Below are positions 27,305-63,880 of a DNA stretch of 64,000 nucleotides, in pieces. Positions within the stretch are counted from its first letter, which is position 1; each line of letters begins with the position of its first letter. A program made the position numbers and the translations under genes. The notes under the pieces are model-generated. The model worked only from the letters and a program-made list of their open reading frames with translations, was not told where the DNA came from and made no database searches. This DNA is from Arthrobacter sp. Leaf337 (lineage in GTDB: Bacteria > Actinomycetota > Actinomycetes > Actinomycetales > Micrococcaceae). Location of the stretch: assembly GCF_001423745.1 (NCBI RefSeq), contig NZ_LMPC01000002.1:1-64000 (forward strand), in the 5' to 3' direction.

Positions 27305-28261
27305 GTGAGCACCGCAGAAAACACCGCGTCCCAAGTACGTGATGTCATCATCGTCGGCTCCGGCCCTGCAGGCTACACGGCTGCAGTTTATACGGCACGT
27401 GCCAACCTTAAGCCGCTGCTCCTTGCCGGTTCCGTCACTGCCGGCGGGGAGTTGATGAACACCACCGACGTGGAAAACTATCCCGGATTCCCTGAAGGCA
27501 TCATGGGTCCCGACCTCATGGAGAACTTCGAGAAGCAGGCCGCCCGGTTCGGCACGGAGATCCAGTTCGAGGACGTCACGGCTTTGGATCTCGACGGCGA
27601 CATCAAATCCGTCACCATCGCGACGGGGGAGACCTTCCAGGCTCGAGCCATTATCCTGTCCACAGGATCGGCTTACCGTGAGCTCGGCCTTCCGAACGAA
27701 AAGCGACTCTCAGGCCACGGCGTTAGCTGGTGTGCAACCTGTGATGGTTTCTTTTTCAAGGACCAGGACATCGCGGTCATCGGCGGTGGCGACTCGGCCA
27801 TGGAAGAAGCACTGTTCCTCACCAAGTTCGCCAAGTCAGTCACCGTGGTGCACCGCCGGGACACGCTCAAGGCGTCCAAGATCATGGGTGACCGCGCACA
27901 GGCCCACGAGAAGATCAACTTCGTGTGGAACACCGCTGTTGAAGATGTCCTCGGCGGCGACAAGGTCACCGGCCTGAAGCTGAAGAACCTCGTGGACGGC
28001 AGCGAATCCGAATTGGCTGTCACCGGCGTATTCGTGGCGATCGGAAACGATCCGCGCACGGAGCTCATCAAGGACACCCTGGAGATCACGCCGGCCGGCA
28101 CCATTGCCGTTGAAGGGCGCAGCTCCAAGACGAGCGTCAAGGGTGTGTTCGCTGCTGGCGACGTTGTAGACCCCACCTACCGCCAGGCCATCACTGCCTC
28201 CGGCTCCGGTTGCGTGGCAGCTATCGACGTCGAGCACTATCTCGCAGACTTCCACGCCTAA
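27305..28261 (+). CDS. trxB: Thioredoxin reductase
   Basis: A 318-residue NADPH- and FAD-dependent thioredoxin reductase. Seen: FAD-binding VGSGPAGYTAAVYTARA near residue 18, redox-active CATCDG near 144 (C-A-T-C), NADPH-binding GGGDSAMEEALFL near 163, and the C-terminal FAD segment AAGDVVDPTYRQAITASGSG. GTG 27305 gives the family length; the open frame extends further upstream but would overlap the predicted promoter. Followed 36 bp later by trxA, forming the classic reductase-thioredoxin operon. Confidence 0.95.
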   Translation: MSTAENTASQVRDVIIVGSGPAGYTAAVYTARANLKPLLLAGSVTAGGELMNTTDVENYPGFPEGIMGPDLMENFEKQAARFGTEIQFEDVTALDLDGDIKSVTIATGETFQARAIILSTGSAYRELGLPNEKRLSGHGVSWCATCDGFFFKDQDIAVIGGGDSAMEEALFLTKFAKSVTVVHRRDTLKASKIMGDRAQAHEKINFVWNTAVEDVLGGDKVTGLKLKNLVDGSESELAVTGVFVAIGNDPRTELIKDTLEITPAGTIAVEGRSSKTSVKGVFAAGDVVDPTYRQAITASGSGCVAAIDVEHYLADFHA

Positions 28262-28297
28262 CAGCGCACTATTGATCCGAAGGGAAACAACAAAACA

Positions 28298-28624
28298 ATG
28301 AGCAACGCGAAAGACGTAACCGACGCAAGCTTCAGCACGGATGTACTCTCGGCCGACAAGCCGGTCATCGTGGACTTCTGGGCAGAATGGTGCGGTCCCT
28401 GCCGCAAGCTGGGCCCTATCCTGGACGAGATCTCCGTTGAGTACAGCGAGAAGGTCAATGTCGTCAAGGTAAACGTAGATGACAACCCGGCAATCGCAGC
28501 CGAATACGGCATCACGTCCATTCCCGCCGTCTACCTGTTCCAGGGTGGCGAGGTGAAGAACACCGTTATAGGCGCCAAGCCGAAGCAGTTCTTTGAGAAG
28601 GAATTTGCTGACGTCCTGTCGTAG
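28298..28624 (+). CDS. trxA: Thioredoxin
   Basis: A 108-residue thioredoxin. Seen: active site WCGPC at about 32-36 within VDFWAEWCGPCRKLGP, and the conserved cis-Pro in GITSIPAVYLF. AAGGGAAAC lies upstream of the ATG. It reduces disulfides in ribonucleotide reductase, peroxiredoxins and other targets, and is regenerated by the TrxB just upstream. Transcript ends at a strong hairpin about 50 bp downstream. In related genomes genes such as the cwlM amidase usually follow, but here a gene-free region begins. Confidence 0.97.
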   Translation: MSNAKDVTDASFSTDVLSADKPVIVDFWAEWCGPCRKLGPILDEISVEYSEKVNVVKVNVDDNPAIAAEYGITSIPAVYLFQGGEVKNTVIGAKPKQFFEKEFADVLS

Positions 28625-28674
28625 TACGCTGACCGTCTAAGCGGCATCATGCGTAGCCCGGCAACCCGGGATAA

Positions 28675-28720
28675 GAAAAGCGGTGGCCATCACCTGGAAA
28701 GGTGATGGCCACCGCTTTTC
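28675..28720 (+). terminator. Strong hairpin terminator after trxA
   Basis: A perfect 21-bp stem (28675-28695 with 28700-28720) around a GGAA loop, ending in CTTTTCTTT on the plus strand. The A-rich 5-prime side would also give a T-rich tail on the minus strand, so it could work in both directions. Confidence 0.93.
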
Positions 28721-29103
28721 TTTCCTTGCTTTGCTGACTATAGCCGAGTAGCGGGCGGGATGGCCGGCGTCACGGGTGACGGGGCACTGGCGGCCTGGCA
28801 ACCTGCCCACGAGCTGTTTCGGGGGACCGCTCGACCTACTCCCATCGGACAGAAGCGTGCCCAGCGGGGTGACGGGCTTTCAACAACTCAGGCTGGTTGT
28901 TTCGGATCAAGATTCTCATCAGGATTGGCCCACGGAGCGAAGTGGCTCACGGTCTCGAATGGCGGGGCCCCTTGGTGAACTTGCTGTGCATTCTAGTGTC
29001 GCCGTAGTCTCGCTAGATTAGTCGAGGAGCTCCTGGTATCTGACTGTGTCGTGGCTTGGCGTCGCCGCCAAGTGCTGATCGAGCCTCTTCCAAAGCCTGC
29101 GAG

Positions 29104-29119
29104 TGTTTCACGTGAAACA
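29104..29119. other. parS: parS site
   Basis: TGTTTCACGTGAAACA, a perfect 16-bp match to the bacterial parS consensus bound by ParB. First of the sites in the trxA-parB region. Confidence 0.93.
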
Positions 29120-29282
29120 CTGTCACCCCTGTTCCCAGCGTCCGACAATATGCGTGAGTCCACATGGCGCTGGACGTGGAGTCCTGCAAGGGTGACGGAG
29201 TTCGGCTACTAGGTTCTCAGAGACAGTCCAAAAGGAAGTCGCCCTCAATCGACCAGTTCAGGCTCACCCCTCCCGGGAGAAT

Positions 29283-29298
29283 TGTTTCACGTGAAACT
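29283..29298. other. parS: parS site
   Basis: TGTTTCACGTGAAACT, 15 of 16 bases matching the consensus (last base differs). It is 179 bp from the previous site, the closest pair in the window. Confidence 0.9.
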
Positions 29299-30166
29299 CT
29301 CGGCGATCCTGCTCGAGAATTCGGCATTAGGAGGCCCCTTCGATTTCGAACTTACTGCGCGAGCCCATTAGGGAGCACTCATCCTGCCAACTCGCCATAG
29401 CTTGGCGGAAGCTCCCGCGGCTCTGAATAGACCCTTTCGTGCGTCAAAGTTCAGCCCGAGATCGTAATACGCCGATGCACCAGCCCTAGGGAACCTGGTT
29501 CAGTTCACAACCAGCGCCGATCGCTCTCGATCCTAGCGACACATAGGATGGCGACCCCATTCTTTCATCGCTATGGCGCCAACAACTTCACACTCATTGA
29601 AGCCCGGCAATGAACAAACGAATCGAAAGCCCGATTTCCTGACAAACTCGGGCACACGAAGGATTTCAACAAGGAAGCGGGTAGCCCCGCAACTCAACCG
29701 ACTTCGACTGCTCGACTGGCGAATTCGCGAATGGTCCACGAGGGCGCCAAGTCCGGTCAGAGGACGATTCCGCATGGATGCGGACGACACCGCACGGTTG
29801 AGGACAGTTCTGGGACTCTAACATCGTCCGATTGAGCGACTCCCGTGTCCATTGGGCCGCTCACTGCGCCAGCGTTTAAATGCAAGGGGACCATTTCAGG
29901 GGGCATCAACGGATCGTCACCTGAATCTGAACGCTGAGCCCACAGGATCTCCGAGTGAGCGCCCTATGTGTACCAGCAACGTACCGCCACATGCGGAGCC
30001 CCTTGGTAACTCAGGGTAATCGGCGTCTGGAGTCTGGGAGTCGAATCCTGGTCAGTAGATGGAGCAATCTGACATCCTTCCAGGGGAGTGCCCGGGCATG
30101 GACTCCGAAAGGGGCCGACAATGACCGATACCCCATCACGGTCCCGTCAAATGCGACCACCGCCGC

Positions 30167-30182
30167 TGTTTCACGTGAAACA
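30167..30182. other. parS: parS site
   Basis: TGTTTCACGTGAAACA, a perfect consensus site. Confidence 0.93.
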
Positions 30183-30600
30183 TCCACCTAGCACGTGCTG
30201 CACCAAACACCATCCTGCGCCGGTCATGCTCCACAACTCCTCATCATTGCGATACACCTGTCTGACGAATCCAACACCAGTAGATGCGCAAGGATGGCAG
30301 AATCTTCCGTCGTGGACGTCGCCTGGTCACATGGAACGGACCATGCACCGTGCTCGTGTCTTGACCCCCGGGGTCTGAGGTCAAGAGGATCAACTGGCAG
30401 GACGACCCCACCTATACAGCTCGCATTCGCCCGCGAGTGAAGTGCAGCAGCTCGGTTCAGGACCACACTCTGCTCCCACGGCAGTGGCACAGTGCAGTGG
30501 TGCGCCGCCGATCAGCCCGGCTTCCTATGCCGGCGGATCTCCAGGCAACCGCACCTGGCGCCCACGCACCAAGGCACCGCCGCACCAGGGCACCAGCGCA

Positions 30601-30640
30601 CCAGCTCGCCAGCTCGCCAGCTCGCCAGCTCGCCAGCTCG
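30601..30640. repeat. Five tandem copies of an 8-bp unit
   Basis: CCAGCTCG repeated five times without error, followed by a diverged CCACGATG, and preceded by a looser GCACCAG/GCACCGC series. The unit number may vary between strains by slippage. No coding role is supported. Confidence 0.85.
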
Positions 30641-30691
30641 CCACGATGTGTACTAGGAATGTCCGGGGAAGGGTGCACGTGCACTCACCCA

Positions 30692-30707
30692 TGTTTCACG
30701 TGAAACA
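30692..30707. other. parS: parS site
   Basis: TGTTTCACGTGAAACA, perfect consensus, about 50 bp beyond the 8-bp tandem repeat. Confidence 0.93.
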
Positions 30708-32060
30708 CAGGCTACATCGGTTCTCAGTAACCAATCTGGTTTTCAAGTCGCACCAGCTGCCAACAGGCGCATTGATTCCCATACTGTTGGTAACTGAACT
30801 CACCCCCCCAAAAAGGGATTTCATGACTGCTGAGCAATGTCGCTCCACCGTCACGACTCGGCCCCTGGTTCTCCAAATCCGCTAACCCCATGTAGGTGAA
30901 TCCTGGCTACCATCGGGCACAACAGTGGCCGAAGACACAGCCCGTGGGATAGACGGGCCCGGTACCTCAGGTCAGGACACGGCGCCCACTCTTCCAAATA
31001 GAGCCGACGAAAGTGAAATCCGCAGAAGTATGGGGGAGTATTCAACTCGGCGCTCCTTTGAAACGGCTGCCCGGACCAATGGGAGCCCCGCTGAAGTGAT
31101 GCCAGCTGGAGACCACCATCTGGAGAACCACGCCTGGCAGACAGCGGCCTCCTCCAGATGGGCGCGCGTTCTCCGACCAACCTATACGGGGAGCCAACCC
31201 ACGGTACCAATGGCGGCCACGGCGACCCCAGTCCAGTAGCAACGGGAATACCCGAATCTTCCCCACGTCGGGTAGAGCGCACTTCTCATCCGTGGATCGC
31301 TTGGCGGATCAGGCTTTCACTCAGCACCGTAGAACCGGAGAATGCCGCGCGGCCACCGACGCTGGCACGTTCGCGATCGAACAAGACACATCGCCGCGAC
31401 AGACGGGAGACCATCGTCGCCGGCCTGTCAGCCCACCTTGCGGGCTCCCATGCCACCCCAATCTTGGCTTGCACCCTCGGTTTGATACCCCCGACCGCAA
31501 CCCAGCCGCGGATGAACCCCTCGAGAGTGAAGACGCCTATTCCACGCAACAGGCCACTGTGAACCGGACTGCTACTTGTAAGGACGCTTCTTGAACGCCA
31601 GGAATTCGCCGAGGTATCCGGTGAAGAAGTCGGCCCGGCTCCGCGAACCGAGACGTTTGAAGTTCGGTGAAGAAAAGTTATCCGCCCGCGGGCTGTCCCG
31701 GCAGGTTCCACGCCTAACAACACGCACCTCGGATACGGGGGCATAGCTTTCGAGATTTTATGGCAAGCCGCTAATACGCTCGGTACGGCCTGCGAGTCTG
31801 TATCTGGCCCATGGTTCCGCAATTTGAGCGCGCATTCCTGATGATCTAGCCGCGAGCCTGTTGCCGAGTAGCCGTACAGTGGCGCCTTCCAATCGACCGG
31901 AAGTGCTAATGAGGAAGAGCGGACGATGCGTGGTGGCTGTCTTCTGATGTCGTGAACGTACGCGATGGGACTCGGAGTGATGGATCTTTCGCTGTCAGAG
32001 CCAGCAGCAAAGTTGTCACGGATCCGCTCCGGAGCGGACTTTTCCCCAAGTGCCCTCCAT

Positions 32061-32480
32061 TTGTCCACATCCGATATCCACAGGTTTGTCCACAGCTCTT
32101 TCCACACGTCCGTTGCTGTGATTTTCGCCATGGCCCCTGGTGGCAAGGAACCAGTGTTCGCCGTGACGGGAGTCACTAAAGACTTCCAAAGTCGCGGAAG
32201 CTTCCGGATGGTCGAAATTGCCTGCCAATGGTGAAAAGACTGCCCACAATCCGCGAAAATGACGCCTTTGGCGCCAAATTCTCGCCGAAAACAGCTACCT
32301 GCCATGTTTCACGTGAAACACAAGAATCCGCTGGCGGACCTAAACCACGACGGCCTTGGATGTACAGCACCGTGACATCATCATGATCGGAGTGTAGTTG
32401 CCAATTGTCCACAAAGTTATCCACAGTGATATCCACCGGGTTATGCACCGCCCACCTCACCAACTGACACGCTGTCCACA
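32061..32480. other. DnaA-box cluster within the gene-free region
   Basis: TTGTCCACA at 32061-32069, 32086-32094 and 32405-32413, a perfect TTATCCACA at 32417-32425, and near-matches ATATCCACA (32074-32082) and CTGTCCACA (32472-32480). Spacing is uneven, in two groups about 310 bp apart with a parS site between. DnaA may bind here; an origin function is not shown. Confidence 0.55.
32305..32320. other. parS: parS site
   Basis: TGTTTCACGTGAAACA, perfect consensus, between the two halves of the DnaA-box group. Confidence 0.93.
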
Positions 32481-32690
32481 CAGTCGGGAGAGGTCCGACG
32501 ATGCATGGACGTACTCATGTCGGACCTGTACGACGGCTCTCCGACATCAACGCAGACGTCAAGGAACAGGTCGAGTCCGGTCACTACTGACTGACGATTG
32601 GCGTTGTGCCGTCAGGGGAGGTGCTGCCCCCGACGCGCCACGGACCCCAACAATCTGGATCTGTGTGCGTCTCGATCGCAGGAGGTAGCG

Positions 32691-32795
32691 ATGGCGAGAG
32701 CTAGCGATCGCGAAAGGTTCCGATCTTCAACTAGGCGCAGGCCCACTCGCCCTGCGAACATCACCGAAGGAAATCAGAAGGGCGACATGGCGTGA
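32691..32795 (+). CDS. Doubtful 34-residue Arg-rich frame
   Basis: Not recognised. CAGGAGGTAGCG precedes an ATG and the frame runs 34 residues, begins MARASDRERF and is strongly basic. It is short and its codon use is not convincing; it may be the start of a decayed gene whose body has lost its frame. Confidence 0.2.
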   Translation: MARASDRERFRSSTRRRPTRPANITEGNQKGDMA

Positions 32796-33294
32796 AGGCT
32801 CCATCCATCAGTCTGTCTCCCGAGGGTTGGCCACACCGCGATCATTCACTCAAATGGAGCCAATCTTGATGTGTAAGTCGAAGCTGATCCGACGACCGCG
32901 GACAGGCCGGACAGGCAGGCGTACTCTTCGTCAAGCTGCGGGGGAGCCACGACATTCCGGTAGCCGCCGAGACTCGACTGGACCAGGGGCCTGGGGCATG
33001 TCGGCGGCAGCGCGTCCTCGTCTGACATCACGACAGCCCATCGGCATTCCGGGTGACCGGAGCAGTCCAGGTTGCGCTTGTCCTAGACCTTTCCACAGTT
33101 GGCCAAATTCCGATGCGCGACCCAAGTCCCCAGAGTCCGTGGCTGTTTCACCACAAGCCGACGAGGTCACAGGGTCGGACAGGCTACTTGCCAACCTGCT
33201 AGCTAAGCACGACTCTGACCCGGCGCAGCAGGCCCTTCCTGCACTTGCCCGTGAAAGATGGGTACTGCGTCGTGGAATCACCCGACTACATCAA

Positions 33295-33310
33295 CGTTTC
33301 ACGTGAAACA
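33295..33310. other. parS: parS site
   Basis: CGTTTCACGTGAAACA, 15 of 16 bases matching consensus (first base differs). Last site before the IS21 insertion. Confidence 0.9.
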
Positions 33311-33690
33311 TAAACCGGCCCTGCAATTGGAGGCAGTGCGACTTGCCGAGCTCTGGACGCTCCGACGCTCCCGGGGGAGTGCCCGGTGAGCCCGTCCATT
33401 CAGAACCATGCCACGGGACCAACTAAGTCATGGGTCGACGGTTGGGCTACGCGTTGGGTCGGCATCTGGGATGGGCGCCGCACGAAGACATCGGTCGAGA
33501 GAACTGTGGTCTGCAGTCAGCGGAAAAATTCAGTTCCACAGGCAACAGCGGCAGTCCCGCTCGGCCGGCAGCCCCTGTCAGTCGAAGTTCGTCAGTGGGT
33601 CAGTCCCAATGCCTGGCCACTGCCACGTCCTGCACATCTAACCGCACCATAATCGCCTGCGCAGCCACTGTAGATCCGAAGGAGATATAG

Positions 33691-33810
33691 GTGACAGAAG
33701 CCGAGATGCACAGAGACCCTGTTGTCGGCACCTTCATCGGGCCATGTCCGCTAGGTGGTTCCGGAGATTGCCTCCGTGGCCGTCCGTCCCTGGCGCCGGC
33801 TAAGCCGTGA
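33691..33810 (+). CDS. Doubtful 39-residue frame with near-perfect RBS
   Basis: Not recognised. GAAGGAGATATAG precedes GTG 33691, and the frame encodes 39 residues beginning MTEAEMHRDP with a CPLGGSGDC segment. A complete initiation signal in front of so short a frame suggests the remnant of a truncated gene, or a small peptide. No terminator follows. Confidence 0.25.
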   Translation: MTEAEMHRDPVVGTFIGPCPLGGSGDCLRGRPSLAPAKP

Positions 33811-34410
33811 CGCTACCAGTAGACGTCCACACTTTGCGATCCGCCGTAGTCTGATAATTCGCAATCAACAGGGTGCGAGTAGCTACTCCAGTGTGTGCCT
33901 GGCATGGTTCCACGTGAACAGCACATGCATCCAATTGAGGCTACAGCTTGAGTTAATCTGCGCCACCCAATGAAATTCCGCGTTACCAACACCGATCCGT
34001 CCGGTTCGATTCGGCGAAAGAGGTCCACAGGATCCGCAAAACCCGCCCTTTGCCCTAGTGGAAGACCATCTTCCCTGCGTCAAACAATGTGCCCGGATGG
34101 ATAGATCTGTACTCGAACGGCGTCCGCACCCAACTCCTTCCGGATCTACCCGCCCTTTCCTCCACCACTACAACGCCGGTGTTACCTACATCAGGAGACT
34201 CGGGGACAAGAAGCCCCGATGCGGTGGATTCCGCTATTCCCGTCTCAGGAGACCATCTGCCACCAACCGTCTCCTGGCGATCGAAACGTGAACTGGAGCC
34301 GACATCCTTACCTACAGCTCCAGAAGCCACTTGGTTCCGGCCTTGCCACAGGGTGCCTGCGTCCATCCGGCGCCGAGATCTTGCCGGGGTGGGGCAGTCG
34401 GGGCCATGTG

Positions 34411-34436
34411 TGAATATTCGCGCTTTTGGGGTCCAT
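34411..34436 (+). repeat. Left terminal inverted repeat of the IS21 element
   Basis: Starts TGAATATTCGCGC and runs into TTTTGGGGTCCAT. It pairs imperfectly with the right end. Confidence 0.7.
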
Positions 34437-34574
34437 CCGTCGTGTGTTCGGGGGCCGCTGGGCAGAGCGCGCAGTAGCGGTCTTGGGTGCCGGTAGTGGC
34501 GTGTTTGGGGGCCATCCTGATTTAGGCTCCTTCCGTCGTGTGTATAGGGCGCACGGCGGAAGGAGTAATCATCA

Positions 34575-36137
34575 ATGGTACGGAAGATCAGAGCGAAGCT
34601 CGTGTTGCGGCTGCGCGCCGAGGGCTTGTCGGGCCGGGCAATCGCTGCGTCGCAGGGCATGTCCCGTAAGAGCATCACGGCGGTGCTGGAGGCTGCCGAC
34701 GCGGCCGGCGTGGCGTGGGATGATATCGCCGACAGTTCGGAGGGCGAGGTCTATACCCGGCTGTTTCCTGGGCGCGGTGAGCATCAGAGTGTGTTCGCGC
34801 AGCCGGACTGGGACCAGGTGCATAGGGAGATGGCCCGGGTCGGGGTGACGCTGAAGCTGCTGCATGGCGAGTACGCGGATTCACGCGCCGCTGGCGGTGA
34901 GCCGGTGATGGGTTATGACCGGTTCTGCAGGACCTATCAGCGACATGTGCTGGTCACTGGGATGGCGTCCCGGGTCGGGCACAAGGCGGCGCAGACGGTG
35001 GAGGTCGACTGGTCGGGCCCGACGATGCAGCTGACAGATCCCGTGACGGGCAAGTCGAGGACGGTGTATCTGTTTGTGGCTTGCCTGCCTTTCAGCCGGT
35101 ACGCGTTCGTTGAACCCGCCCTGAACATGAAGCAGGACACCTGGTTGCGGGCCCACGTGGCGATGTTCGAGGCCTTTGGCGGTTCGGTGCCGCGGATCGT
35201 TCCGGACAACCTGAAGACCGGTGTGATCAAGCATCCCCGCGAAGGCGAGGTCGTGCTCAATGACGCTTACCGGGAGATGGCGGCGCACTATTCGGCGGCG
35301 GTGCTGCCCGGCCGTATCAGGGCACCGAAGGACAAGGCGAGCGTGGAGAACACGGTCGCCCACGTGGCTACCTGGGTCATTGCCGGGCTGCGCCAGCAGC
35401 AATTCACCTCGTTGCCGGAGCTTCGTGCCGCCATCACCGACCGGGTAGGTGCGTATAACGCGGAGCCGTTCCAGAAGCGGCCGGGGTCCAGAGCCAGCGT
35501 GTTCGCAGCCGAGGAGCAGCCCCTCCTGACGGGGTTGCCGGCGGCGGCCTATGAGATCAGCCGGTGGGCCTACGGGCGCCGGGTGGGCCGGAACGGGCAC
35601 GTGGTCTGGGAAAGGAACTACTACTCGGTGCCGTTCGCCCATGTTGGCACGTCGGTGGACCTGCGGATCACCGATCGGGTGCTTCAGGCGTACCGGGGCA
35701 GCGAACGGTTGACCAGCCATCTGTTGCTGCCCGAGAGCGCGGCGAACGAGTACCGCACCAATGATGCCGACCTTCCGGCCGGCGAGAAATACCGGCAGTG
35801 GGATCCGGAGCGGGTGCGGGAATGGGCCGGACGGATCGGCCCGGCAGCAGTGACCGTGGTCAACCGGATCTTCGAGTCCGTCCCGGTCGACGAGCAGGGC
35901 TTGGACGCGGCCCTTGCCGTGTTGCGGCTTTCCCGGCGCTATTCGGCCGAACGGGTGGAGGCGGCCTGCCGGCTTGCGTTGGCAGGCAGGGTGCGGTCCC
36001 CGAGGTATGCGCATTTGCAGCCGATCCTTGCCACGGAGCAGGACAAAGCCGCCGGGCTCAGGCCTCCACGGGATGAAGGAGTCGAACACGGCGGATACGT
36101 GCGCGGCGCCGAGTACTACGCAGGTGGCGCCAAATGA
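34575..36137 (+). CDS. istA: IS21-family transposase IstA
   Basis: A 520-residue DDE transposase. Seen: N-terminal helix-turn-helix with LSGRAIAASQGMSRKSI (residues 19-35), and an RNase H-like catalytic core with Asp in EVDWSGPTMQL (near 152), Asp in IVPDNLKTGV (near 213) and Glu in DKASVENTV (near 256), the expected D-D-E set. The C-terminal part contains the usual Mu-transposase-like beta segment with NYYSVPFAHVG. It overlaps istB by four bases (ATGA). Full family length, no frameshift. Confidence 0.95.
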   Translation: MVRKIRAKLVLRLRAEGLSGRAIAASQGMSRKSITAVLEAADAAGVAWDDIADSSEGEVYTRLFPGRGEHQSVFAQPDWDQVHREMARVGVTLKLLHGEYADSRAAGGEPVMGYDRFCRTYQRHVLVTGMASRVGHKAAQTVEVDWSGPTMQLTDPVTGKSRTVYLFVACLPFSRYAFVEPALNMKQDTWLRAHVAMFEAFGGSVPRIVPDNLKTGVIKHPREGEVVLNDAYREMAAHYSAAVLPGRIRAPKDKASVENTVAHVATWVIAGLRQQQFTSLPELRAAITDRVGAYNAEPFQKRPGSRASVFAAEEQPLLTGLPAAAYEISRWAYGRRVGRNGHVVWERNYYSVPFAHVGTSVDLRITDRVLQAYRGSERLTSHLLLPESAANEYRTNDADLPAGEKYRQWDPERVREWAGRIGPAAVTVVNRIFESVPVDEQGLDAALAVLRLSRRYSAERVEAACRLALAGRVRSPRYAHLQPILATEQDKAAGLRPPRDEGVEHGGYVRGAEYYAGGAK

Positions 36138-36880
36138 GCGGGATCGATACTGAAACCAAGCGCAAGCTCCGTGAGATGGGTGCCGTCCCGATGCTAGAAG
36201 CGCTCGAGGCACAGGACGAGGCACTCGTGCTCGGCATGGCCTTCGAGGAACGGCTCCGCCTGGTCGTGGACGAGGCCCACTCCGGGTTCAATCACGCCAA
36301 GGTCGAGGGGCTGATCCGACGGGCCGGGCTCCGCTACCCGGGCGCGGACCTACGCCGGCTCGACCTCGTGGACGAGCGCGGCCTCGACCGGAGCCTGATC
36401 GCCCAGCTCGGCACGTGCTCCTTCATTGAACGGCAGCAGAACGTCGTGTTTCAGGGATTCACCGGGTCCGGGAAGTCCTACCTCGGGTGCGCTCTGGCCA
36501 AGCAGGCCTGTCTGCACCGGATCCGGTCCCACTACGTCCGAATGCCCGACCTCGAGGAAGCCTGGGCGCTGGCGAAGGACAAGCCCTTGGGGGCCACGAA
36601 GTTCCTGAAGAAGTACGCGGCTTTCACTTTGCTGGTGATCGACGAGTGGCTTCTCGACCACCCCGACGAGGGCATCCGCAGCATGCTGCTGGAACTGCTC
36701 GAACGGCGATACGACACAGCTTCCACCGTGTTCTGCACCCAATACGCCAAGAAGGACTGGCACCAGCGGCTCGGCTCCGGGGTGCACGCCGATGCGATCA
36801 TGGACCGCATCGTGCACAACACCATCTGGGTCGACACCGGCAATCACAACATGCGTGAACACGCCACCATGACGCAATAG
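36134..36880 (+). CDS. istB: IS21-family helper ATPase IstB
   Basis: A 248-residue AAA+ ATPase that assembles on target DNA and directs IstA-mediated insertion. Seen: Walker A GFTGSGKSY near residue 113, Walker B TLLVIDEWLLD near 170, and the sensor segment TASTVFCTQYAKKDWHQRLG. Translationally coupled to istA. Intact. Confidence 0.95.
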   Translation: MSGIDTETKRKLREMGAVPMLEALEAQDEALVLGMAFEERLRLVVDEAHSGFNHAKVEGLIRRAGLRYPGADLRRLDLVDERGLDRSLIAQLGTCSFIERQQNVVFQGFTGSGKSYLGCALAKQACLHRIRSHYVRMPDLEEAWALAKDKPLGATKFLKKYAAFTLLVIDEWLLDHPDEGIRSMLLELLERRYDTASTVFCTQYAKKDWHQRLGSGVHADAIMDRIVHNTIWVDTGNHNMREHATMTQ

Positions 36881-36967
36881 GAAAACGCCGGTGGGGGCCG
36901 GTGGCCCCCATGCATGCGGCCGCTGGCCCCCACCGGCAATATCACTGGCCCCCAAAGGCGAGATCGA

Positions 36968-36993
36968 CTGGCCTCCAAGCCTTCAAATACTCA
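36968..36993 (-). repeat. Right terminal inverted repeat of the IS21 element
   Basis: Read from the right end inward it starts TGAGTATTTGAAGG and continues into a GGAGGCCAG block, matching the left end at the outermost bases and again at the GG-G-CCA core. Confidence 0.7.
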
Positions 36994-37340
36994 ATGTGAG
37001 CCATTTTTGGTCGTCTGCGGGCTTGTAGGCCCGGTTGGCCCCGCAATACTCCCTTCTATCCGGGAGCCCAGTATTCACAGCCTAGAGGGCCCTAAGACGG
37101 CTCTCCAAGCCGCTAGGTGCCCCCGCGAGACGACAGCACGGACACGAGTAGCGGTCGGCAGGAAGCGCCCGTCTGCGTTCTCCGTAGCTCTGCGGACTCC
37201 ACGACGGCGAAGCCACGGGCATCCCGCCGCCATAGACTTCAGCTGTTTGAGGTCATCTGAAACCCAAAACTGATGCTGATCAGGTACTACCAGCAGTGAT
37301 CTCCGGCCAAGTCGTCGACCAGCGGTAGGAGGACACAAAA
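36994..37340. other. Gene-free stretch between the IS and parB
   Basis: About 350 bp with no supported gene. It resembles the region left of the IS and is probably its continuation. Apart from the 5-bp target duplicate at its left edge I see nothing distinctive. Confidence 0.6.
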
Positions 37341-37370
37341 GAGGGCCTGTTTCACGTGAAACAGGCCCTC
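37341..37370. other. parS: parS site inside a 30-bp perfect palindrome behind parB
   Basis: The perfect parS TGTTTCACGTGAAACA (37348-37363) is extended on both sides by seven further complementary bases (GAGGGCC and GGCCCTC), making a 30-bp palindrome with no loop. It starts 17 bp past the parB stop codon. In RNA the same sequence would fold into a hairpin, so it may also help end the parAB transcript, although no clear T-run follows. Confidence 0.9.
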
Positions 37371-37386
37371 TCCGGTCGCGTAGGTT

Positions 37387-38568
37387 TCAGTTCTCAGATC
37401 CTGGTGAAAGAACTTCCATGATCCGGTTCAAGTCCTCCACGCTGGCAAATTCGATACTCACGCGGCCCTTTCGGGCGCCGAGGGAGATCTTTACATTAGT
37501 ATCCAGTCGATCTGACAGAGACGACGCGAGGTAGTCCAACCGCTCATGACGGGCGCCCGGACGGGGGACATTGTTCTTCGCGGTGGTTGCCGGGCTCTGG
37601 TACAGAGTGACAGCTTCCTCGGTGGCGCGAACGGACATTCCTTCTGCGACGATCTTCTGCGCCAGGCGTTCCATCGCCGCTGCATCGGGAAGCGCAAGGA
37701 GTGCGCGCGCGTGCCCAGCGGACAGCACACTCGCTGCAACCCTTCGCTGGACCAGCGGGGGCAGCTTCAGGAGGCGCAAGGTGTTCGAGACTTGGGGGCG
37801 GGAACGGCCAATGCGATCTGCAAGCTGTTCATGCGTCGTTCCGAAGTCCTCCAACAGCTGCTGGTAGGCGGCCGCCTCTTCGAGGGGATTAAGTTGGCTG
37901 CGGTGAAGGTTTTCGAGGAGTGCATCTCGAAGCAGGTCATCGTCAGTGGTGTCCCTGACAATTGCAGGGATGGTTTCCATCCCCGCGGCCTGCACTGCAC
38001 GCCACCGGCGCTCACCCATAACGAGCTCATACGGTTCGCCACCCTTTTCGGTTGACGTCCGGACCACAATTGGCTGAAGAACGCCTATTTCGCGGACAGA
38101 GTGAATGAGCTCCGCCATGTCGTCCTCATCGAAGACGGAGCGGGGCTGTTTACGGTTCGGGTGAATGTCGCCGACCGGAATTTCCGCGAACCTGACACCC
38201 GGGACTTCTACCAGTTCAGGTCCGGTATCGGTGACAACGGCAGCCTCTGACGAAGCCACCTCATCCTCATCAGGCTTTTCGGCATCGGCTCGCTTGGCTG
38301 AGACGGAGTTGGCTGCTGCTTTCCGGGCCGGAGCCTTCAACTCAGATGGCGCTGCGCTCCCGACGGACTTTTTGGGTCCAGGGGAAGCCGGCACAGACGA
38401 TTCTTCTTCCACGGGAACGGCTGTGGCCGTGGACGTCTTGCGTGCCTCGGGAAAGAACAAGTCCACTGGTCGTGAAGGCGCTGCGCCGTTGCCGGAAGCG
38501 TTAGCCGGAGCGGAACTTGGAATGAGTGCGCCAAGACCACGACCGAGGCCGCGTCGCTTATCGCTCAT
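37387..38568 (-). CDS. parB: Chromosome partitioning protein ParB
   Basis: A 393-residue CTP-dependent DNA clamp that loads at parS and recruits SMC and ParA to the origin region. Seen: N-terminal [14 protein letters not shown] motif for ParA interaction, a long Ala/Glu/Asp-rich disordered linker (about 20-140), the CTP-binding boxes GERRWRA and [10 protein letters not shown], a helix-turn-helix with [18 protein letters not shown], and a C-terminal dimerisation domain. Downstream of parA with 65 bp between. Its binding sites occur eight times in 29.1-39.6 kb. Confidence 0.97.
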
Positions 38569-38633
38569 GGATAAATCCCTCCAATGGAAGAGCCCGGCAG
38601 ACCCGGCTCTGGCTAGTGCAGTTGTTGAAAATT

Positions 38634-39698
38634 CTAACGTTCAGCGATTTCGGCTGCGGCTTCCAAGTAGGACAGTGCACCGCTGGAGGAGGGGTCGTAC
38701 GTCATCACAGTCTGCTGGTAACTGGGTGCCTCGGAGATCCTAACCGATCGCGGCACCACGGCACCGAGGACCTGGTCGGGGAAGTGCTGACGAACTTCGG
38801 CTGCCACCTGTGCGGCCAGGTTCGTCCGGCCGTCATACATGGTGAGAAGAATGGTGGAAACAACCAAATCTGCGTTGAGGTGCTTCTGGATCATCTCAAT
38901 GTTCTTCAGAAGCTGGCTGAGGCCTTCCAAAGCGTAGTACTCGCACTGGATGGGAATCAGGACCTCGCTGGCGGCGCAGAACGCGTTGACCGTTAGCAGC
39001 CCAAGGCTCGGCGGGCAGTCGATGAAGATGTAGTCAAGACGGGCCTCGCCCGACTTCTCGCGTTCCTTGGCATACACATCAATCGCGCGGCGGAGCCGCT
39101 GTTCCCTGGCGACGAGTGAAACAAGTTCAATTTCAGCGCCGGCCAAGTGAATGGTGGCGGGTGCACAAATCAGGTTATCGATGTCAGGGCACGGGGCCAC
39201 AACGTCCTTGAGGGGAACGTCGTTGATCAGAACGTCGTAGATGCTGTCGACGTCCGCATGATGTTCAATGCCGAGGGCAGTGGAGGCGTTACCTTGGGGA
39301 TCGATGTCGATGACCAGGACCTTCAGCCCGGCGGCAGCGAGGGCAGCGGCAATGTTGACCGTGGTGGTTGTCTTGCCAACCCCGCCCTTCTGGTTCGAGA
39401 CTGTGAAGACGCGCGTCTTCTCCGGCTTCGGCAGGTCCCGGCCGATCAACCGTTCGCGGCGTTTGTTTTCGTGGGCCAGGTCCCGGGCAATCGGGCTCGA
39501 GTCATCAATGGAGTCCATGATGTTGCCACTGACCGATTCAGTTTCACGTGAAACTGCCGCGGACTTGGACCGGTTTGTAACCGAATTCAGATGATTCCAC
39601 GAATCCGTGGGCGCAATTGAGGGCGCGACCATGGCCCGTGCGGACCCCAGGGACACGAACGGGGGTATCCGCTGTGTGGAGGCTTCGCTACTGGTCAC
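38634..39698 (-). CDS. parA: Chromosome partitioning ATPase ParA
   Basis: A 354-residue Walker-type ATPase that moves ParB-bound origins over the nucleoid. Seen: deviant Walker [11 protein letters not shown] at about 104-113, [11 protein letters not shown], and [13 protein letters not shown]. The first 90 residues are an extension whose [10 protein letters not shown] segment is the translation of a parS site (39540-39555). I kept GTG 39698, since mycobacterial ParA has a similar long extension; ATG 39518 would give 294 residues and put the parS upstream of the gene. Confidence 0.95.
39540..39555. other. parS: parS site within the parA 5-prime coding region
   Basis: AGTTTCACGTGAAACT, the 14-base parS core intact and part of an 18-bp palindrome. 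Read in the parA frame it encodes V-S-R-E-T. Confidence 0.88.
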
Positions 39699-42414: not shown

Positions 42415-42817
42415 GCGGTGTCCCTTCCTGTCTTGTTTCCCGTGAAACCGCTGACGCGGCCCGAGGAAGGCGGCCGCCCAGCCGTTTCATGGTCGTTTCC
42501 AGAGCGGCATTGTAATCTGCCAGCAGTTGGTCCCAGCTGGCAGACGCGGCCGCAGGCAGTGCCCGGACCACAATGGCGAACCCGGTACCGTATTCCTGCA
42601 ACGACAAAGCACCGGCTTCCCTCAGTCTCCTCTTAACGAGGTTCCTGACAACAGCGTTCCCGACACTCTTGGAAACGATGAATCCGATCCGGCTTGGTTC
42701 GTCAGCAGCAATAGCTACCGTATATAACACTACGTTCCGGCGTCCATTGCGGACGCCGGAACGTACAGTTGTTGAAAAATCGGTTGGGGTCCTCAGACGG
42801 TTCCTGGTGGCTAGCAC
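42407..42817 (-). CDS. rnpA: Ribonuclease P protein component
   Basis: A 136-residue protein subunit of RNase P, which matures tRNA 5-prime ends with the RnpB RNA. Seen: the RNR motif in VGNAVVRNLVKRRLRE (near 53-68), typical of RnpA. GTG start. The C-terminal AVSRETRQEG is encoded by a degenerate parS (42434-42449). Located between rpmH and yidD as in nearly all bacteria. Confidence 0.94.
   Translation of the reverse strand: MLATRNRLRTPTDFSTTVRSGVRNGRRNVVLYTVAIAADEPSRIGFIVSKSVGNAVVRNLVKRRLREAGALSLQEYGTGFAIVVRALPAAASASWDQLLADYNAALETTMKRLGGRLPRAASAVSRETRQEGTPRA
42434..42449. other. Degenerate parS-like site in rnpA
   Basis: TGTTTCCCGTGAAACC differs from the parS consensus at two of 16 positions, one in the central CACGTG. 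It is translated as V-S-R-E-T in rnpA. ParB affinity is expected to be weak. Confidence 0.45.
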
Positions 42818-44888: not shown

Positions 44889-45423
44889 GCCGGGCTTCGC
44901 GCCCGCCTCCTTACCTTATTAACAGGCGCATGTGGATAAGCCTGTGGATAGTTAAGGGGACAACCGCGGTTAATGGGCTTAAAACCCTTAAGGCATCTGT
45001 GGATCAGCGAAACGGCCGAAAAAGTTGTCCCCATCCACACCCTGTTTAAAACCTGCGTCGCCCACAACGGATGAACAGGGCTTAACCGCGAAATCCTGCC
45101 GTGAAACAGGGTTATCCACAGTTTCCACAGCAGTTATTAACACTACTAATCCCAAAAAATTGAAATTCCCTCAAACAACAATCTCGTTCCCAGCACCGGA
45201 CAGCCTCGTGACCTCGGCTCTGAAGAGCCAGCGTCCCGGCCGGAGATGGGGAAAACCGGAATCTTCCGGCTAAGCTGTCAGCAGCGCTCCCATCCTTGGG
45301 TCTGTTTGTGGTTCAGCAAGCGCGGACCATGCAGGTTCCGGTGTCCGGGGGCAAGGTTTTCGAACTCCCTGCGGGAGTTCCCGTTCAGAAAATGGCAGCA
45401 GCAATGAAAGGCGGCACCCTTCC
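44889..45423. other. oriC: Chromosomal origin of replication oriC
   Basis: The 535-bp dnaA-dnaN spacer. DnaA boxes: TGTGGATAA (44931-44939), TGTGGATAG (44943-44951), TGTGGATCA (44998-45006), TTGTCCCCA (45025-45033), TTATCCACA (45112-45120) and TTTCCACAG (45122-45130). An AT-rich stretch at about 45131-45190, with a run of six A, is a likely unwinding element. Location and contents match known actinobacterial origins. Confidence 0.92.
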
Positions 45424-62267: not shown

Positions 62268-62859
62268 GAGCCAATACTGCCCGGAAAACGGTAAAAAGGC
62301 GTTCTCTTTCCAGCAAGTACTTGTCTATAGGATCATCTTCCGCCGGCTGCCTGCGCTCTCTGCCGCAGCCCGTGGCACTTCAGGCTGTGAACTTGCGTTG
62401 CTGCGGCGCCCCTGGCTGTAACGCGTCCAGGACGGACCCTCCCTGGTCCATGACCTGCAACCAGCCGGGGGCAGTGAAACCACCTCGTGTGCTACGATCC
62501 TCCCCGCTTTCCGGAGTTTTCCACAGGGGTTATCCACATTGTTGGTAACTTACATGCTTGTAGTTCACTCTCCCTCCCCGGTGATGCCCTTGCCAGCTGG
62601 CGATTATCGACAACGGTGATCCTCCTTGTCCACAACTGTGGATAAAGCAGTCCGGCGGGGCTGTGGTTAAGTGGACAACTCAGCTGCCCGCGGCGGGCTG
62701 CCGGTGAGGTGCTTCAAGGGCCGGAAGCGAGGATGCCGCCAGCCAAGTGCCAGGTTTCGCGTGGGAAACCCGCCTCTCCGTCGCACGCATTGGGCGCTGA
62801 AACGGCATATCCCGCCGCGTCGATTGAGCGCTGGAGATACGCTCTTCAACAGGTTATAC

Positions 62860-62879
62860 ACACTGTTAATAACTCCGGA
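62860..62879 (+). repeat. 20-bp direct repeat, copy 1
   Basis: ACACTGTTAATAACTCCGGA, identical to 63132-63151, overlapping a TTATACACA box at its left end. Confidence 0.9.
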
Positions 62880-63131
62880 GGGCTGAGGAGTACGAAGCCA
62901 ATTGGCGGGTTGGAGCCTGATAGAGCATCAGATCACTGATTTATCCCCTGCGTTATCCCCACCTGTGGATAACTTCTGGGGATAGCGTTGTTCTTAAGTG
63001 GATAAGTTCAACGCGCTTGGTGCCCGCCGTCATTGCCGCGGTTCCCCTGCGCAAAATGGCGGGGTGGCTGCTGGATCCAGGCGGTCTGCTTGGCGATTTG
63101 CCGCTTGGAACCCGTTATCCACAGGCAATCC

Positions 63132-63151
63132 ACACTGTTAATAACTCCGGA
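63132..63151 (+). repeat. 20-bp direct repeat, copy 2
   Basis: ACACTGTTAATAACTCCGGA, identical to 62860-62879, nine bases after a perfect TTATCCACA box. Confidence 0.9.
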
Positions 63152-63268
63152 CCGTGGGATTCTTCCGGGGTCCGGGTCATCCACAGGCCATGGCCCTAGG
63201 AAGGATCGCCTCATCGGCCCAGACTTATCAACACTGTGGATAACTTTCCCCACAGGGCCGGGATAAGT

Positions 63269-63880
63269 TCAGGCCCCGTCAGTCCATACGCCGGACGAGC
63301 CGCGACGATGGCTGTCGACAAGATGGGTGTCGATCATTCCGATGGCCTCCATGAGCGCGTACATCGTGGTTGGCCCCACAAATGCGAAGCCTTTGGCACG
63401 CAGGGCCTTGGACAGGGCAATGGATTCGGTCGAAGTTGTGGGGATCTCGGAATGTGTGAGCGGACTCGGCGTTACCTCCGGTTGGAAACTCCAGACGAAG
63501 TCCACCAGCCCGCCTTCACGCCGCAACGCGATGGTGGCCTGGGCGTTGGTGATGGCCGCCCGGATTTTGAGCCGGTTCCGGACGATGCCGGCGTCGAGCA
63601 TGAGGCGTTTGACGTCGTCGTCGGTGAAGGCCGCCACCGCATCTGGCTGGAAGCTGTGGAACGCTGACCGGAAGGCAGGCCGTTTCCTCAGGATGGTGGC
63701 CCAGGACAGCCCGGCTTGGAAGGCCTCCAGGCTGATGCGCTCGAATAGGCCCCGTTCGTCGCGGACGGGCATGCCCCATTCGGTGTCGTAGTACTCCTGG
63801 AGCAGCGCATCCGCGGCCGCCCACGGCGGACGGGCCAGACCGTCGCTGCCGATGATGGTGCCGCGTTCATCCGGGGTCAT
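63269..63880 (-). CDS. tag: DNA-3-methyladenine glycosylase I family protein
   Basis: A 203-residue Tag-family base-excision glycosylase that would remove 3-methyladenine from DNA. Seen: EYYDTEWGMPVRDERGLFER (near 29-48), ISLEAFQAGLSWATILRKR with the catalytic-pocket Glu, and GPTTMYALMEAIGMIDTHLV. Compared with E. coli Tag, the zinc-binding positions Cys4, His17 and Cys179 appear replaced (Ser, Tyr, Ser), leaving only the His175 equivalent, so it probably folds without the zinc clasp. AAGGAACCC precedes the ATG. Confidence 0.9.
   Translation of the reverse strand: MTPDERGTIIGSDGLARPPWAAADALLQEYYDTEWGMPVRDERGLFERISLEAFQAGLSWATILRKRPAFRSAFHSFQPDAVAAFTDDDVKRLMLDAGIVRNRLKIRAAITNAQATIALRREGGLVDFVWSFQPEVTPSPLTHSEIPTTSTESIALSKALRAKGFAFVGPTTMYALMEAIGMIDTHLVDSHRRGSSGVWTDGA

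Follow-up and report, generated by a model that had tools for sequence, protein, structure and literature searches.

According to the sections of the literature cited here, the closest described systems each share some features with the locus studied in this work. In Corynebacterium glutamicum, ten parS sites, nine of them intergenic, are distributed over 35 kb that lie 73 kb from the chromosomal replication origin, oriC (PMC7083940). In Caulobacter crescentus, DnaA binds to DnaA boxes in parS, and partitioning there requires DnaA-ATP (PMC6399470; PMC6667618). The Soj/ParA protein of Bacillus subtilis regulates DnaA, and contacts between ParB and DnaA have been reported in other species (PMC7022226). 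The datA and DARS sites of Escherichia coli are non-coding DnaA-box clusters away from oriC (PMC4585315), and direct-repeat arrays upstream of parAB on secondary replicons of Deinococcus radiodurans combine origin and parS-like functions (PMC7671480). Here we analysed a stretch of 64,000 nucleotides from Arthrobacter sp. Leaf337 (positions 1 to 64,000 of contig NZ_LMPC01000002.1, the window), in which the interval between trxA and parB, termed the desert, contains no supportable gene apart from one insertion sequence (IS). The desert carries seven perfect parS sites and, at its center, a module of two DnaA-box arrays.

The locus resembles the one in C. glutamicum, since perfect parS sites are clustered near oriC, parA and parB are chromosomal and the parS sites are mostly outside genes. 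In the account of that system, however, the parS sites lie in gaps between genes, whereas here seven share one interval next to parB that is free of genes and has DnaA arrays in its center. DnaA boxes in the centromere are shared with Caulobacter, where the distance to the origin is approximately 8 kb (Mera et al., 2014, as cited in PMC6399470 and PMC6667618) compared to approximately 13 kb here. Caulobacter belongs to an unrelated phylum, and the present locus differs in its two ordered arrays, placed centrally in a gene-free interval with multiple parS. A link to parS is not part of the description of datA and DARS in the source consulted (PMC4585315), whereas the arrays reported here are situated within a parS cluster. 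The Deinococcus arrays are likewise non-coding and located beside par genes; they are the origin of secondary replicons (PMC7671480), while skew and conservation argue against an origin here. Among the titles and abstract beginnings listed from the open-access literature (at most 20 titles per listing), which leaves subscription papers such as parS surveys outside the scope, no such Arthrobacter locus was found described.

The trxA-parB interval extends from 28625 to 37386 and is approximately 6.2 kb long once the IS is subtracted. The perfect parS 14-mer GTTTCACGTGAAAC occurs seven times in this interval and once more at the 5′ end of parA, where it lies within the gene or just upstream of it, depending on the start codon chosen. 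Allowing up to three mismatches, ten matches were found in the window compared to 1.92 ± 1.52 in shuffled sequences, and none of 100 shuffles had at least ten; the imperfect copies include one with a single mismatch at 42435 and one with three mismatches at 33907. The 5.2-Mb assembly contains eight perfect parS in total, every one of them at 29105-39554, and the reversed pattern, used as a control, had no match across the assembly. The eight sites span 10.5 kb near parAB, as expected for the clustered parS of a chromosomal ParABS system, and the cognate ParA and ParB genes, identified with Pfam, adjoin the cluster. In kind, the locus remains a ParABS centromere. An earlier note on this DNA had listed the seven parS of the interval; all are indeed perfect 14-mers, each located one base further to the right than given there. 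The eighth parS, a hairpin stem downstream of trxA and the DnaA-box module (32061-32449) were absent from that note.

A ParB search yielded 36 same-genus relatives (Arthrobacter in the wide sense; eight of these loci are duplicated by records that bear the names Arthrobacter, Pseudarthrobacter and Paenarthrobacter), and the ParB-linked stretches of all 36 were examined. The interval was measured in 34 of them; left out were L034, which reaches a contig end, and L052, in which trxA is not within 12.5 kb. Together with the window, five further same-genus loci, two loci of genus g28 and one of genus g40, these form a set of 43 deserts, so that all measurable intervals from these genera in our two comparison sets are included. 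In L052 (G032:C198) the 12.5 kb next to parB contain five dispersed parS and no trxA, and the desert has likely undergone a large insertion or rearrangement.

The DnaA boxes were found by a k-mer scan of 35 intervals that made no prior assumption about DnaA. After words derived from parS came the DnaA box TTATCCACA, with 79 occurrences compared to 0.6 expected and present in 35/35 intervals. The interval sequences (190 kb) contain 92 exact DnaA boxes, the flanking sequences (424 kb) four. In the window, the module comprises eight box-like 9-mers: four exact ones, one with a single mismatch and three with two mismatches. All 43 deserts contain two box groups, which are 207-360 bp apart (median 324); groups were split at the largest gap, and a module was termed bipartite if boxes located at most 450 bp from the center were separated by 150 bp or more. 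An exact parS lies between the two groups in 32/43 deserts, while random placement would give approximately 15.6. Nearly all module boxes are on the plus strand (249/257, with eight on the minus strand), whereas elsewhere in the deserts 24 plus-strand and 19 minus-strand boxes were found. The most common spacing of neighboring boxes in the module is 12 bp (95 pairs). Although interval lengths vary more than two-fold, the module center is located at 0.52 ± 0.05 of the interval, and in 42 of the 43 deserts it is within 0.44-0.62. The densest 700 bp of 430 simulated deserts contained at most three plus-strand boxes (three only once, median 1); the real deserts have at least three (median 6). Fifteen further named loci had a measurable interval (14 Arthrobacter-type and one Sinomonas), and 14 of these have at least four plus-strand boxes per 700 bp; left out were eight duplicates and L135, L140, L144, L145, L149, L154, L156 and L173, in which trxA was not in view. 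With the module present in 43/43 deserts, DnaA boxes are found within the parS locus as in Caulobacter, and they form a cluster of strong DnaA boxes away from oriC as does datA.

The gap that separates array I from the central parS includes a weakly AT-rich patch (window positions ~32190-32300; AT content ~0.50 compared to 0.39, over the 43 deserts), which may be a third element. Several relatives contain words like AACCAAATT or GAAAATTAACC in this patch. Phased A-tracts that might bend the DNA between the arrays were suspected in the window; they are inconsistent across relatives and were rejected.

Coordinates of the parS sites, DnaA-box arrays and neighboring features in the window.
Feature	Position	Strand	Evidence or remark
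trxA (thioredoxin), left border, reads towards the desert	28298..28624	+	Pfam Thioredoxin 1.6e-29; open reading frame
Terminator-like hairpin 3′ of trxA	28675..28720	+	20-pair stem
parS	29105..29118		perfect 14-mer
parS	29284..29297		perfect 14-mer
parS	30168..30181		perfect 14-mer
parS	30693..30706		perfect 14-mer
DnaA-box array I	32061..32106	+	starts 32061, 32074, 32086, 32098; exact match at two, 1 mismatch at one and 2 mismatches at one
Central parS, DnaA-box arrays on either side	32306..32319		perfect 14-mer
DnaA-box array II	32405..32449	+	starts 32405, 32417, 32429, 32441; exact match at two, 2 mismatches at each of the others; pitch of 12 bp
parS	33296..33309		perfect 14-mer
IS21-type element	34575..36880 (istA 34575-36137, istB 36134-36880)	+	Pfam; element ends not fixed
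parS, 25 bp past the parB stop	37349..37362		perfect 14-mer; desert end that aligns in 11/42 deserts
parB, right border, convergent with trxA	37387..38568	-	Pfam ParB_N, HTH_ParB, ParB_C
parA frame (longest open reading frame; start codon possibly further in)	38634..39698	-	Pfam AAA_31, CbiA; open reading frame
parS, 5′ end of parA frame	39541..39554		perfect 14-mer; parS at the matching place in 36/36 same-genus loci
dnaA-dnaN gap, probable oriC, outside the desert (for comparison)	44889..45423		DnaA boxes, column conservation

Across the relatives, the size of the interval and the number of parS are maintained. The interval is 3.9-9.4 kb long in 34/34 measured relatives and contains 5-11 perfect parS; in 33 of them it measures 3.9-7.0 kb, the exception being L042 with 9.4 kb, which carries insertions. 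For all 43 deserts the mean is 7.67 perfect parS (range 5-11). In 8/8 listed same-genus genomes, all perfect parS are located within the single trxA-parB-parA locus. If the window is compared to the other 42 deserts with blastn, the region of array II aligns in 28 and the parB-proximal end with its parS in 11, while elsewhere only traces (one or two deserts) are found. Array II is therefore the only inner stretch of the desert with wide alignment. The parB-parA genes of the two nearest relatives are ~84% identical over 2.3 kb, while the deserts are no longer alignable.

The rate of this change was determined in pairs of species. In the pair L046/L055, 86.3% of the four-fold sites and 69.9% of the desert are identical, and 7/8 parS are in place compared to 1.1% of other 14-mers; two parS and two DnaA-box blocks are the only stretches of 20 bp or more that are identical. 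In the pair L026/L049, the desert (82.2%) is about as similar as the four-fold sites (80.7%), 8/8 parS are in place compared to 11.8% of other 14-mers, and many further identical blocks persist. In five more distant pairs the desert is saturated (identity of 0.43-0.46 in forced alignments), and two to six of seven to ten parS are in place, a count that depends on the parS acting as anchors of the alignment. The L046/L055 deserts differ at 30% of aligned sites, compared to 14% at the four-fold sites of parB-parA, and in some lineages the spacer may thus evolve faster than synonymous sites do. A general drift faster than neutral was considered and rejected; it is seen in L046/L055 (0.699 versus 0.863), not in L026/L049 (0.822 versus 0.807). 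Because the pairs disagree and the distant pairs are saturated, the claim is limited to a drift that is at least about neutral. The spacer thus appears to drift about neutrally or faster, while the binding sites are held. For a dedicated centromere, the earlier note had expected conserved parS positions and free drift elsewhere in related Arthrobacter genomes. The number of parS is indeed maintained while the remainder drifts, which supports such a centromere; the exact places of the sites are conserved only in the closest species pairs (7/8 and 8/8).

The suggestion that the interval contains no supportable gene apart from the IS21-type element is confirmed. Comparison of ten chosen open reading frames (ORFs) of the desert to Pfam gave nothing better than E = 0.072. 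None of the window ORFs in the interval, IS excluded, shows a gene-like codon-position GC pattern, a filter on third-position GC that is unsuited to lower-GC genera. The longest ORFs of the 43 deserts (the window's IS excluded) have a mean length of 217 amino acids (aa) compared to 200 aa in simulations, which is near chance. In 6/43 deserts the length of the longest ORF was matched in at most 1/40 simulations. This includes the 339-aa ORF of the window (31286-32305, minus strand; 1/40 simulations as long), which has no Pfam match and near-zero blastn alignment to the other deserts. A search of Rfam at gathering level revealed two tRNAs in the window and none in the interval; with no Rfam match and almost nothing alignable, a hidden RNA in the desert was rejected. 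Between 28250 and 37500 there are two promoter-like sites compared to 2.2 expected. Both are minus-strand sites that overlap or adjoin array II, and we make no case for promoters in the desert.

The IS21-type element was identified by Pfam (IstA: rve and Mu-transpos_C_2; IstB: IstB_IS21). Neither istA nor istB has a match in the other same-genus loci measured, and the element is therefore a late insertion. The right part of the L042 desert contains two transposase-like ORFs, recognized by reading the translations, between its last two parS. These insertions and the IS21 of the window are in the same stretch of the desert, and the DnaA module is intact in both. Two minor observations concern the window: a short tandem run of CCAGCTCG units at 30598-30645, inside the desert, and a stretch of 14 bases at 31706-31719 that exactly matches the 3′ end of trxB (28250-28263), possibly by chance.

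At the left border, a hairpin below -25 kcal/mol is present within the first 140 nt past trxA in 43/43 deserts compared to 9/43 control stretches. Past parB the signal is weaker (25/43 deserts, 12/43 controls). The strong hairpin after trxA could shield the desert from transcription.

To determine the distribution of the module, one or two loci per genus were sampled from 31 other Micrococcaceae genera, together with the five further same-genus loci. Without g28 and g40 this gave 32 loci from 29 genera, and after removal of L083 and L089, which have no trxA in range, 30 loci from 27 genera. No exact DnaA box was found in the trxA-parB interval of these 30 measurable loci. Their interval is 77-247 bp long in 11/30 loci and longer elsewhere, in some cases with genes such as cwlM. 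Tersicoccus has six parS in 2.3 kb and no DnaA boxes, and parS-rich intervals therefore occur without the module. The Sinomonas locus (L141) contains the module. A tree of ParB+ParA (128 sequences, 540 alignment columns, no support values inspected) places the genera with the module in one clade, in which a nested group of Psychromicrobium and others is without it; L142, from this group, has no plus-strand box per 700 bp. The simplest reading of the tree would be one gain and one nested loss, and several gains are possible.

Altogether, the desert is a maintained structure with an additional layer of DnaA boxes. We propose that it is a transcription-insulated regional centromere whose DnaA-binding center couples initiation to segregation, as has been proposed for the Caulobacter parS; for this reading we regard the chances as evenly balanced. 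ParB would load at the seven dispersed parS and at the one at parA, and would spread across the gene-free DNA to form a cargo that is moved by ParA. By analogy, SMC would be loaded at this ParB platform. DnaA probably assembles on the two co-directional arrays that bracket the central parS, approximately 13 kb from the probable oriC. This could tie the state of the centromere to the availability of DnaA, and perhaps the reverse via contacts of the ParA/Soj type, so that segregation and initiation would be coordinated. Occupancy by ParB and DnaA, silence of the interval and a function of the spacer are, like the coupling itself, inferred from the sequence. A more specific version is tentative and in our view rather doubtful: kilobases of DNA would be selected for their length and their scattered ParB sites, kept free of genes and transcription and equipped with a central bipartite DnaA switch that gates segregation according to how far replication initiation has progressed, having arisen in one clade of the Micrococcaceae and with a spacer that changes at the synonymous rate or faster.

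Several observations weigh against the proposed centromere with a DnaA-binding center. In C. glutamicum one parS is enough for wild-type-like growth, and ParB spreads up to 16 kb (PMC7083940). The sections consulted of a study on ParB sliding report that DNA-bound roadblocks can be bypassed and cite ChIP data in which genes have no strong effect (PMC9242446); a need for gene-free DNA is therefore unproven. There are other DnaA-box clusters near oriC, and the centromeric place of this one is thus possibly incidental. The module itself is not uniform: L122 has only two plus-strand boxes per 700 bp, with box pairs far apart, an exact parS between the arrays is missing from 11/43 modules, including both g28 loci, and in four deserts array II is a single box at up to one mismatch. 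In g40 a parS is located elsewhere in the gap between the box groups. Psychromicrobium and its neighbors have neither module nor desert.

DnaA-box clusters away from oriC are also found in other bacteria, and the strongest rival is that the arrays are a reservoir for DnaA. In this case they would bind spare DnaA or promote its inactivation shortly after initiation, since they are replicated early. They would be found in the desert since it offers silent non-coding sequence close to oriC, and the link to parS would be loose. We consider this unlikely, though a serious possibility. Exact and closely spaced boxes approximately 13 kb from the probable oriC speak for a reservoir, and E. coli is known to control DnaA through the non-coding sites datA and DARS (PMC4585315). 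The largest DnaA-box cluster of the window lies between a rhomboid gene and tag (62517-63321); it comprises 16 boxes with up to one mismatch, six of them exact, and repeats a motif like CTGTTAATAACTCCGGA. A cluster of at least six boxes is present there in 20/20 Arthrobacter loci, and one of at least five boxes is found beside the rhomboid gene in 10/15 other-genus loci with this gene in view, which makes it a candidate for a family-wide DnaA control site. The rhomboid-tag cluster is a second large cluster near oriC, as the reservoir view would have it; being family-wide already, it leaves less for an additional reservoir to explain, which weakens this view and no more. Titration moreover requires neither the central place, nor the excess of parS between the arrays, nor the layout on a single strand. 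The near-exact centrality in deserts of very different length would also suit an array, bound by DnaA or another protein, that divides the centromere in the middle or organizes loading, by splitting ParB clamps or steering SMC without any signal to replication. In vitro, proteins bound to DNA halt the sliding of ParB (PMC9242446). The bypass reported in the same study proceeds via recruitment in trans, and the boxes are of the DnaA type rather than just any tight-binding site, and we regard a divider as improbable.

Still less probable is a role of the module as a replication origin, be it a second, an alternative or a relic one. Two arrays around a spacer resemble a bipartite origin, and the patch between them reaches an AT content of ~0.5. 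The strongest AT bin in the dnaA-dnaN gap is, however, 0.67, and this gap contains four to six DnaA boxes, two of them exact, in 20/20 loci. Columns that are at least 90% conserved make up 52% of the dnaA-dnaN gap and 9% of the module, and mean pairwise identity is 0.74 and 0.40, respectively; the module alignment comprises 28/35 deserts, since seven failed the rule of a parS between the boxes, whereas the analysis of group spacing includes all 43. Mean GC skew in the non-coding desert (n = 43) is -0.044 left and -0.031 right of the module, so that the change of sign expected at an oriC is not found there, although the skew is less negative on the right side in 30/43 deserts (Wilcoxon p = 0.011). 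Right of dnaA, at the box cluster, it is positive on average (mean +0.036; 14/20). The switch is therefore located right of the desert, as expected near dnaA. The module is probably not oriC, and an oriC within the desert was rejected on skew and conservation. Least probable, and largely refuted, is a passive desert, in which decayed genes have not yet been deleted and the parS were retained by happenstance. It gains some plausibility from the insertions tolerated in the window and in L042, and from A. gandavensis and A. koreensis, which encode a 395-aa CwlM-like protein (PG_binding_1 and Amidase_3) after trxA. Matches to the A. gandavensis protein were found in 9/61 family genomes, in none of the seven genomes from the module genera and, at E ≤ 1e-8, not in the assembly of the window. 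The earlier expectation that cwlM fills this interval in other genomes is thus true for these two species, while 52/61 family genomes have no match. No CwlM remnant was detected in the 43 deserts (best tblastn E = 0.69), the ten window ORFs have no Pfam match, and the length stays at 3.9-7.0 kb in 33/34 relatives despite sequences that can no longer be aligned. The short intervals of 77-247 bp in other genera imply that shrinkage is possible. The gene-free state is common to the genus and two other genera and is therefore old and maintained, and the decayed segment suggested in the earlier note finds no support.

The usual picture of bacterial centromeres is that of short parS sites within or between genes. 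Here, a whole genus and two further genera maintain several gene-free kilobases, whose conserved content is formed by sites for ParB and, in the center, by two paired DnaA-box arrays. Centromere function would be separated from genes, and sites for the replication initiator would be placed at the center of the segregation platform. The coupling of initiation and segregation becomes testable by scrambling approximately 400 bp, without touching any gene. If true, the locus would be a bacterial counterpart of the fast-changing centromeres of eukaryotes.

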